Part shown: one piece after another, positions 40,486 to 43,972 of the stretch
Layout of the letters: every line of letters begins with the position of its first letter
How positions within the stretch are numbered: the first letter of the stretch is position 1
Assembly: GCA_033485155.1 (NCBI GenBank)
Contig: JAWQJJ010000011.1
Coordinates: 1-64,000, forward strand
Source of the DNA: Methanomassiliicoccus sp.
GTDB taxonomy: Archaea; Thermoplasmatota; Thermoplasmata; Methanomassiliicoccales; Methanomassiliicoccaceae
Reading direction: 5' to 3'
DNA length: 64,000 nt
Position numbers and translations under genes: made by a program
The notes under the pieces: model-generated
Database searches by the model: none
What the model was told of the DNA's origin: nothing
The model's input: the letters and a program-made list of their open reading frames with translations, nothing else

Positions 40486-40941
40486 TCATATCGTCATTAC
40501 CGGCCGTCCGTCGCTCCCGTACAGGAAGCCGGTGATGGATGCCCTCTCCTGCACCTCCCGGTCCCTGATCTTGACCCAGAGGTCGGACATGCGCCGGATG
40601 ACGTGCTCCTTTGGCACGTACGCTCCGGGATAGTGGATGGCGATGCTGCCGTAGCGCCTGGCGGCCTCGATGTACTCGTCGTCCCTCCCCTCCCTGTCGG
40701 CGGAGAAGGCCGTCTCGAGGAACTCCTTGCTCAGCACCGCGCCGTCGGCGCCCACCAGCCACAGGATGGCCCGCGGCTCGTCGTCCTGGAACTCGTGATG
40801 CGCTCTCGCTCCCGGATGGTCCTTCATGAGAGCCTCCTCTCGAAAGAAGAGGGCACGATGGACCACCTCGACGTGCGACGACTTGGAGCGCGGGACCTCC
40901 TCGCCATCGCCCCGGTCCTCGTTACCATCCATGAAGAACAT
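40486..40941 (-). CDS. uncharacterised soluble protein
   Basis: About 151 residues from the ATG at 40941 (an ATG at 40932 is the alternative; the frame runs to 41022). The sequence is mixed, with RAILWLVGADGAVLSKEFLE in the middle and SDLWVKIRDREVQERASI near the end; no motif was recognised. A TATA-like TTATTTAT lies about 30 bases before the start, so the message may be nearly leaderless. Neighbours are a flavodoxin and the chagasin-like gene. Function unknown. Confidence 0.6.
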   Translation of the reverse strand: MFFMDGNEDRGDGEEVPRSKSSHVEVVHRALFFREEALMKDHPGARAHHEFQDDEPRAILWLVGADGAVLSKEFLETAFSADREGRDDEYIEAARRYGSIAIHYPGAYVPKEHVIRRMSDLWVKIRDREVQERASITGFLYGSDGRPVMTI

Positions 40942-41044
40942 GATGATGTGGTCTGAGCCGCCCTCATAAATAACCTGGCCCCCGCGACCGAAGTGGCTCG
41001 GGATCGCGGGAACGGCTTGCATCGACCTCGGCCGTAAAGCGAGA

Positions 41045-41395
41045 TCACGCGATCTCGATCTCGTACTCCGCCACCTTGACGGCCTCCGGCTCCCACGGCC
41101 TGCGGTACCGCATGGTGATGACCGTCCTTCCTTGCACCAGGGCGAGGAAGGTGAATGTGGATGTGCCCCCTCCTCCGATCAGGCGGGAAGCACGGCGATA
41201 GTCCTGGCGGACCAGAGAGATGAAGCGATCGTCGAAGGACGCTTCCCAGGAATAGCCGGTCGACGGGTTGGCGTTAAGGGAGATGGCAAGTTCCTTCCCC
41301 GCCGCGGCCTCTATTCGTTCTCTCGTGTGCTCACCTGGAGACCGAACGCCTTCCGGCGATATATTGGCATACGGTCGCCGATCCGGCTCGGTCGC
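41045..41395 (-). CDS. chagasin-like cysteine-protease inhibitor (I42), no canonical start codon
   Basis: The frame directly following the TGA of the DUF362 gene is open for 116 codons and clearly encodes an I42 chagasin-like inhibitor. All three inhibitory loops are present: NPSTGYSW (NPTTGY loop), GGGGTSTFTFLAL (GxGG loop) and YRRPWEP (RPW loop). Such proteins block papain-family cysteine proteases. No in-frame ATG, GTG, TTG or CTG precedes the domain; possible starts are ATA, ACG or read-through of the upstream TGA. It may be expressed from a rare start, be a C-terminal fusion to DUF362 by read-through, or be a pseudogene that lost its start. The boundary given is the whole open frame after the TGA. 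Confidence 0.75.
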   Translation of the reverse strand, partial: ATEPDRRPYANISPEGVRSPGEHTRERIEAAAGKELAISLNANPSTGYSWEASFDDRFISLVRQDYRRASRLIGGGGTSTFTFLALVQGRTVITMRYRRPWEPEAVKVAEYEIEIA

Positions 41396-42589
41396 TCATC
41401 CTCCGCCAGTGCCCCTGGTCACCGCGCGGTCCAGGACGCGCCCCAACGACCCCTTCTCCAGCCGGATGGCCTTGGCCTTGCACATCTCGTGGCAGCAATA
41501 GCACTCGATGCACTTCCGGCGGTCTATGCGCGCTTTCCGTTCGATGATCTGGATGGCCTCCGCCGGGCAGCTTTTGGCGCACGCTCCGCAGCCTCTGCAT
41601 ACGTCGGGGGCGATCACCGGACGGGCGCGGTCGAGGCCCAGGCGGGAGACGGCCGAGGACGCCGTCCTTTTGATGAACGAGCTGGACTCAGCAGAAGCGA
41701 AAGTGCAGGGCAGGGCAAAATCGCTCGAAGCGATCGAATCGATCGGCTCGCCGACGACCTCGACCTCGTTGACGTCGATCAGCGCACGGTCGGATGCGGC
41801 GTGAACGGTCGTCACTCGCATGGGGTCCAGGCGCATGAGGCGGGCGGCCACGGCGTCGATGGCGTACGGGCTGTCGGCGGCAAGGATGGCGTTCATCGCC
41901 TTCGGCCGGCCGGAGGTCGGGCCGTCGCCCTCCATGGCCATCACCGCATCCATGATCTGAAGCTTGGGCTTGACGAGCTCGTTGATGTCCACCAGCACCT
42001 CGGCGAACCGGGCCGGGGTGCGGAAGCGGGCATGGAGGGCCTTCTTCTCCAGGCCCGGCACCACGCCGTAGATGTTCTTCGCTCCGCCGGTGAGGCCGGT
42101 GGCCAGGTGGGTCTTGAGCTTGGAGAGGACGATGATCGCGTCGGCCTCGGCCACCGGGTCGATGAGCTTGACATTGCGGAGGGCTCTTCCGCCGTTGACC
42201 TCGGCGTCGCGATGGCCGGTACCGTAGTTGAGGTCTACCCCCAGCTCCTCAGCCACTGCCAGCATACCGGTCTTGCGGTAAACGCGTTCCAGCGTTTCCT
42301 GGGTGTAGGGAAGGAAGGAACCGGGCGAATCGGCAATGGTTACCTGGCAGCCTCGGTCCCGGACCATCCGTCCCACGGCCAGCATGACCGCGGGGCGGGT
42401 GGTGACGCACTCCTCCGGGGCGGCGTCGATGAGCAGGTTGGGCTTGAGAAGAACGCGATCGCTCGGCTTGATGAAGCGCTCGATCCCCCCTAGGTTATCG
42501 AGGCATTTTCGCACCGCCGTATCGACGTTCTCTTGAGCATAGCTCTGGCAGCGGACCAGGGAGACCTTGGGCGATGGCACGCTCCACAT
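41396..42589 (-). CDS. DUF362 protein with two [4Fe-4S] ferredoxin motifs
   Basis: 397 residues. DUF362 domain (about 1-290): VLLKPNLLIDAAPEECVTTRP, TIADSPGSF, LSKLKTHLATGLTGGAKN. A C-terminal double ferredoxin has CRGCGACAKSCP and CIECYCCHEMC. Proteins of this kind are thought to be iron-sulfur oxidoreductases or cluster carriers; the partner is unknown. ATG start. The chagasin-like frame continues in phase right after its TGA stop. Confidence 0.88.
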   Translation of the reverse strand: MWSVPSPKVSLVRCQSYAQENVDTAVRKCLDNLGGIERFIKPSDRVLLKPNLLIDAAPEECVTTRPAVMLAVGRMVRDRGCQVTIADSPGSFLPYTQETLERVYRKTGMLAVAEELGVDLNYGTGHRDAEVNGGRALRNVKLIDPVAEADAIIVLSKLKTHLATGLTGGAKNIYGVVPGLEKKALHARFRTPARFAEVLVDINELVKPKLQIMDAVMAMEGDGPTSGRPKAMNAILAADSPYAIDAVAARLMRLDPMRVTTVHAASDRALIDVNEVEVVGEPIDSIASSDFALPCTFASAESSSFIKRTASSAVSRLGLDRARPVIAPDVCRGCGACAKSCPAEAIQIIERKARIDRRKCIECYCCHEMCKAKAIRLEKGSLGRVLDRAVTRGTGGG

Positions 42590-43108: not shown

Positions 43109-43181
43109 GGGCAGATAGATCAGCTGGAAGATCGCGACATTCGCAATGTCGAGGCCGCGGGTTCAAATCCCGCTCTGTCCA
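43109..43181 (+). tRNA. tRNA-Ala (CGC anticodon)
   Basis: Acceptor GGGCAGA/TCTGTCC includes the G3-U70 wobble pair that marks tRNA-Ala. D-arm TAGATCAGCTGGAAGATC, anticodon stem CGACA/TGTCG around TTCGCAA (anticodon CGC), T-arm GCGGG/CCCGC around TTCAAAT, discriminator A. CCA is not encoded. The integrase gene at 43163 overlaps its 3' end from the opposite strand. Confidence 0.95.
43163..43181. other. probable attachment site core in the 3' end of tRNA-Ala
   Basis: The shared segment of the integrase gene end and the tRNA-Ala 3' end is the likely attachment core. I did not find a second copy elsewhere in the window, so the other end of the former element is missing or outside. Confidence 0.4.
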
Positions 43182-43972
43182 CTTTCTATCATAATGTTTT
43201 GCGAGAAGAGGTTTTGATTTCTTACTAGCTCTTGATACCGCGCCAGGGTGCCCATGGCGTCGGCCATGTCTGCGAGGTTGATTCCCAGGTACAGGACGGT
43301 GGTCCGGACGTCGCGGTGCCCCATGAGCTCGGCGATGGTCTCGATCGGGCACATACCGGGGAAGCGCTTGTTGGCCTCCCACAGCGTGCGGCCGTAGGTC
43401 CGGCGCAGGGTGTGGTTGCTGAATGGTATGCCCGTCCGCGCAGCTACCCCCTTCACCAGCTTGTCCAGGGCGGTCTTCTGGTATGCGTGCAGCCTCCCGC
43501 CCCGTTCGTAGATGAGCAGAGCGTCGGGCACCTTGACCGCGGGGTTCTTCTCCCGCGCTCGGGCGATCTCCTCCTCTCGGAGCTGCTGGTAGGCCTTCAG
43601 CTCCGCCAAGGTGTCGGGGCGGTAGGGGACCATCCGCCACTTCCCCCCGCCCCGGCCCTTGCCCTGGACCGACAGGTAGGCGACCTTGAAGCTTCCCGGC
43701 TTGAGGCGCAGGACCTCCACTCGGCGGAGACCGAGGTTCAGCTCCAGGTGGATGACCAGGCGCTCCAGGCCCTGAGCCGCGTCCAAGATGCTCAGCGCTT
43801 GTGACGGCGACAGATGCTCGGGCGGCAGCTTCTCGTCCTGAGGCCACTTGATCTTCATGTCTCTGATCACCGTGTTGCCATGCCACTTCAAGTAGGTGTT
43901 CAGCACGGCCAGGTGTCGCCTCTTGACTCCGTTCTTCTGTCGGGCGTAGACCTCGTTGCGGATATAGTCCAC
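43163..43972 (-). CDS. tyrosine recombinase (integrase), N-terminally shortened, overlapping tRNA-Ala
   Basis: 269 residues from a GTG. The catalytic domain is intact: Arg83/84 in GLRRVEVLRL, Lys near 105, HTLR (His187, Arg190), GH (His219) and Tyr228 in VLYLG. Only about 50 residues precede the catalytic domain, so the usual N-terminal DNA-binding domain (about 80-100 residues) is partly missing. In frame, nine more codons (VKTKWAREE) precede the GTG, then a TAG. The last six codons and the stop lie inside tRNA-Ala, antisense to its T-arm and acceptor. That places the attachment site in the tRNA 3' end, as in archaeal integrated elements. Confidence 0.85.
   Translation of the reverse strand: MDYIRNEVYARQKNGVKRRHLAVLNTYLKWHGNTVIRDMKIKWPQDEKLPPEHLSPSQALSILDAAQGLERLVIHLELNLGLRRVEVLRLKPGSFKVAYLSVQGKGRGGGKWRMVPYRPDTLAELKAYQQLREEEIARAREKNPAVKVPDALLIYERGGRLHAYQKTALDKLVKGVAARTGIPFSNHTLRRTYGRTLWEANKRFPGMCPIETIAELMGHRDVRTTVLYLGINLADMADAMGTLARYQELVRNQNLFSQNIMIESGQSGI

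Follow-up and report, generated by a model that had tools for sequence, protein, structure and literature searches.

The stretch of DNA analysed here (the window, 64 kb) carries on its minus strand, at 41045-41398, an open frame that directly follows a DUF362-ferredoxin gene. The stop codon of that gene (TGA, 41398-41396) is followed in frame by 116 open codons (41395-41048), which end at a second TGA (41047-41045). A sequence-only reading had described this stretch as encoding all three loops of an I42 protease inhibitor in the frame of the upstream gene, with no ATG, GTG, TTG or CTG ahead of the domain, and inspection of the sequence together with a Pfam search bore out both observations. 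A usual start codon first occurs 58 codons into the I42 coding stretch. The features of the locus are as follows.

41396..42589, minus strand: DUF362 and 4Fe-4S ferredoxin gene, 397 aa, upstream neighbour (Pfam DUF362 1.5e-57, Fer4 3.9e-08)
41327..41395, minus strand: linker from the DUF362 stop to ACG, 23 open codons, not coding-like (codon-usage score -0.36 per codon)
41331..41336, minus strand: Shine-Dalgarno match AGGTGA, 4 nt ahead of ACG, complementary to the 3' end of the genome's own 16S rRNA
41324..41326, minus strand: proposed start codon ACG, aligned with no gap to the ATG of the G005, G001 and G006 orthologues
41312..41314, minus strand: in-frame ATA, alternative near-cognate start, less likely
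41048..41326, minus strand: chagasin-family (I42) inhibitor gene, 93 codons from ACG (Pfam, orthologue length, AlphaFold)
41246..41269, minus strand: I42 loop 1, NPSTGYSW (N20, P21, T23, G24, Y25 and W27 invariant in 35 sequences)
41165..41176, minus strand: I42 loop 2, GGGG (G51 invariant and G54 more than 90% conserved in 35 sequences)
41093..41101, minus strand: I42 loop 3, RPW (R76 and W78 more than 90% conserved in 35 sequences)
40486..41022, minus strand: conserved downstream neighbour, 178 aa (62.5, 61 and 64% identity in G005, G006 and G001)

The Inhibitor I42 domain and its genomic setting

The frame matches the Pfam profile Inhibitor_I42 (PF09394) with E = 7.8e-22 (77.8 bits against a cut-off of 27.2) over profile positions 3-91 of 91. 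Its codon-usage score is +0.35 per codon, and the other five frames all score negative; the domain is far above chance level. It is the single I42 match that Pfam returns in the whole 2.8 Mb genome, and each of the seven Methanomassiliicoccus genomes sampled, one per species, carries one I42 gene. The loops (NPSTGYSW, GGGG, RPW), whose conservation the sequence-only reading had left to be examined, are conserved across the 35 sequences. In a mechanical listing of open frames, which is not the output of a gene caller, the I42 frame has no entry. Gene finders would skip the gene because the slot of the orthologues' ATG reads ACG here.

The protein modelled from ACG with AlphaFold has a pLDDT of 95.4, and its first strand is formed by residues 3-7. 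Foldseek returned the I42 inhibitors EhICP2, amoebiasin and chagasin as the best fold matches in the PDB (E 1.6e-08, TMq 0.89 for 3M88). The profile match, the three loops and the predicted Ig-like beta fold together place the protein in chagasin family I42 (PF09394). By sequence, the 93-aa form has no signal peptide. Chagasin blocks papain-like proteases by means of a three-loop wedge (PMC7863939). No C1A or C1B peptidase was found in this genome with Pfam models, and the target would be a protease from outside the cell or one that these models miss. Within the genus, papain-like C1 domains were seen in G002 and G003 only, in very long frames of 1076-1379 open codons (L107, L108, L109, L110), and the I42 genes of these two genomes (L004, L009) belong to another type, extended at the C-terminus.

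The surrounding genes are shared with relatives to varying extents. G005 and G006 have the same order of DUF362, I42, the 178-aa gene, flavodoxin-like, metallo-beta-lactamase-like and purB-like genes. In G001, a short contig retains I42 with the 178-aa and flavodoxin-like genes, and the genes upstream differ. Downstream synteny is thus common to all three genomes, and an upstream DUF362 gene is found in G005 and G006 only. The 178-aa protein, which has no Pfam or NCBIfam match, always lies directly downstream of I42 in these genomes and so forms a conserved partner. Elsewhere in the window, a tyrosine recombinase/integrase-like gene (43163-43972, minus strand; Pfam Phage_integrase 5e-10) overlaps with its 3' end a tRNA-Ala gene (43109-43182, plus strand), and 43109-43972 looks like an integration site or what is left of an integrated element. 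Close to the I42 gene of G001 lies an integrase with 44% identity (L114:3237-4223).

The start slot and its Shine-Dalgarno context

The I42 orthologues of G005, G001 and G006 all run for exactly 93 codons from ATG to stop. Read from ACG, the window gene aligns with all three without gaps at 47 to 53% identity, with their ATG on its ACG. At the start site the window reads ...CCAGGTGAGCAC ACG AGA GAA and G005 reads ...CCCGAGCACC ATG ACG GAA. The gene of G005 (Methanomassiliicoccus sp. UBA6; L027; L003:1498-1776) resembles that of the window in its 93 codons, 53% identity and neighbours on both sides, and differs in its ATG and in lying 45 nt, rather than 69 nt, behind the DUF362 stop. All 80 I42 homologues in genome_contigs have a usual in-frame start before the domain, a coarse count in which any upstream in-frame start was accepted. 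A survey for start-less genes covered the 64-kb window by codon-usage scan, and among its 46 putative genes the I42 gene was the one without a usual start near the onset of coding. Inspection of orthologues for a normal start, raised in the sequence-only reading, therefore finds ATG in all three. Of the rare ATA or ACG start that it had also proposed, the ACG part is favoured by the orthologue alignment, the equal length and the position of the Shine-Dalgarno match, and ATA is less likely.

The 3' end of this genome's 16S rRNA (GGATCACCTCCTA) pairs with AGGTGA. Of all ACG triplets in the window, only 1.05% have a 6-base Shine-Dalgarno match 3-9 nt ahead of them. By comparison, 10% of random 20-mers equal the full 20-nt leader in duplex energy, and neither the G005 nor the G001 I42 gene has a good Shine-Dalgarno sequence. 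Shine-Dalgarno support for ACG is therefore moderate.

Two short frames overlapping the junction were considered as candidates and rejected. A micro-ORF whose ATG sits on the DUF362 stop in an ATGA overlap (41331..41399, minus strand; ATG at 41399, immediately abutted by GGAGG) closes after 22 codons and has a codon score of -0.38. A second one, starting with GTG and encoding MSTRENE (41311..41334, minus strand), has 7 codons in the third frame, overlaps both the Shine-Dalgarno match and ACG, and was judged from its sequence not to be a gene. Together with a third overlap, these form a series of overlapping stops and starts on the minus strand that leads from DUF362 into I42 (ATGA 41399, GTGA 41334, ATAG 41314; 41311-41399) and is probably due to chance. 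In Haloferax volcanii, termination-reinitiation is nearly abolished at a distance of about 20 nt (PMC10666635). Given the 69-nt gap, reinitiation from DUF362 is therefore unlikely.

Read-through, start loss, base error and ACG initiation

A fusion of DUF362, ferredoxin and I42 through read-through of the TGA, possibly with selenocysteine, was the first account that the sequence-only reading had offered, and the shared frame and the 23-codon linker free of stops speak for it. So does G005, where the I42 frame likewise lies in phase behind a DUF362 stop, in that genome a TAG. However, being in phase with DUF362 is unremarkable, because it has a 1-in-3 chance and because the phase is not kept in G006, where the gap from the DUF362 stop to I42 is 166 nt and leads into another frame; in G001 there is no DUF362 gene upstream at all. 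A fusion needs a coded linker and a conserved phase. The linker is not coding-like and the phase is not conserved, and read-through is therefore not supported. The orthologues, moreover, have their own ATG. The proposed check of the genome for selenocysteine machinery was run: SepSecS was not found, in a search whose control was positive in M. jannaschii, and no tRNA-Sec match exceeded the family cut-off (two matches, 32 bits against 47). Such sub-threshold matches occur in all control genomes, and the one in the window is a tRNA-Ser. Around the TGA, where a SECIS-like structure had been suggested as a check, the RNA fold of the junction is nothing unusual compared with shuffles (z -0.08), and no Rfam element lies at the DUF362/I42 junction. 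As far as the assembly goes, selenocysteine is excluded, and a fusion product of any kind is extremely unlikely. Pyrrolysine at UAG is known from the archaeal order to which G005 belongs. The I42 gene of G005 (L003, upstream of 1776) has its own ATG, so its in-phase TAG is probably chance.

The I42 gene is thus separate and not an extension of DUF362; its domain is intact, its position is conserved and ACG occupies its start slot in the assembly. The window protein retains all 15 columns whose conservation in 34 homologues is 85% or more, and the frame contains no stop and no frameshift. Relative-rate tests with G006 as outgroup gave no acceleration against either G005 or G001 (p 0.65 to 1.0), with amino-acid changes of 11:8 (window:G005) and 11:11 (window:G001) and changes at codon positions 1+2 of 24:20 and 23:21, respectively. 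The intact targets limit neutral drift since the start change to roughly 0.07 substitutions per site (95%). The intact columns and this bound leave three readings: a gene in use, a gene in use until a short time ago, or a wrong base.

A recent mutation of ATG to ACG that left the gene silent or nearly so, as a young pseudogene, is somewhat unlikely. It would fit the ATG of the three orthologues and the usual starts of the genome_contigs homologues, and an intact domain is also expected when a loss is young. The likely target class, C1 peptidases, is missing from the genome, so loss of the start could cost little. Against this account stand the Shine-Dalgarno match, which is still present, and a coding sequence in which no stop, frameshift or loss at the 15 conserved columns has accumulated, with the bound on drift that this sets. 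A one-base assembly error, with a true base that gives ATG (or GTG) and an ordinary gene, is quite unlikely. The difference is a single letter in a single assembly, and when a further assembly of the species was sought, genome_contigs returned other species only and the start region was unmatched in the viral collection. However, the contig is long (92.6 kb), the assembly has 15 contigs and is 99.96% complete, the site has no homopolymer, and the other 45 putative genes of the window all have a start.

A different start within the same region, either the near-cognate ATA (41314-41312) or a GTG (41334) separated from the domain by a frame error, is very unlikely. The coding stretch with the best score does not begin until 41311, directly behind ATA, and codons 2-5 (AGA GAA CGA ATA) do not score as typical of the genome; the GTG lies 8 nt ahead of ACG in a different frame. 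Yet ATA is 16 nt from the Shine-Dalgarno match and, as a start, would shorten the model's first strand (residues 3-7), no homopolymer favours an indel, the GTG is itself part of the Shine-Dalgarno match, and the orthologue starts coincide with ACG.

We consider it an even chance that the gene is live and that its ACG, a rare and weak start, is used. Under such a live ACG start, a 93-residue cytoplasmic chagasin-family I42 inhibitor would be made from its own gene. The ribosome would probably be placed by the Shine-Dalgarno match AGGTGA and would initiate at ACG with initiator Met-tRNA, at low efficiency, so the product, MRERIEAAAGKEL..., would be scarce. By analogy with chagasin, the protein may insert its three loops as a wedge into the active-site cleft of a papain-like cysteine protease and block it. 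We infer four elements of this account, namely initiation at ACG, the low level, the inhibitory activity and the extracellular origin of the target. Possible, though doubtful, is the further step that selection keeps this archaeal gene with ACG behind a Shine-Dalgarno match because the weak start gives a low inhibitor dose, or that the ACG is edited to AUG in the RNA. As a start codon, ACG generally performs very poorly, and the scores of codons 2-5, the unexceptional Shine-Dalgarno duplex energy and the lack of a C1A or C1B peptidase match in the genome also count against the account. In Sulfolobus, aIF1 has been reported to favour discrimination against non-canonical starts (PMC6237735).

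Significance and comparison with known systems

The unusual feature is the ACG in the start slot; the I42 inhibitor family is already known and the gene block ordinary. Among open-licence papers, we found no report on ACG starts in archaea or on I42 in Methanomassiliicoccales. If the ACG is real and used, the gene would let near-cognate initiation be tested on a natural archaeal example, and it would represent a conserved gene class overlooked by callers limited to ATG, GTG and TTG; a search of start slots guided by orthologues would then find more genes of the ACG type. If instead the start was lost recently or the base is wrong, the case is one of routine annotation. In either case, a false selenocysteine lead has been removed for the genus Methanomassiliicoccus.

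Near-cognate ACG starts are indicated for chloroplasts and eukaryotic viruses by titles cited in PMC9845219, and there, as in the window, ACG replaces an ancestral AUG. Unlike those cases, the window's proposed ACG start is archaeal and stands in a Shine-Dalgarno context; a chloroplast ACG may be edited to AUG. With respect to the protein, the comparison is with the chagasin/ICP family, MEROPS I42 (2NQD, T. cruzi chagasin; 2WGN, P. aeruginosa ICP; 3M88, E. histolytica EhICP2). The window protein differs from these solved inhibitors in its ACG start slot and in having neither a signal peptide nor a C1 peptidase of its own. It is like them in domain and predicted fold, and the NPTTGY-, GG- and RPW-type binding loops of chagasin and ICP recur in it.
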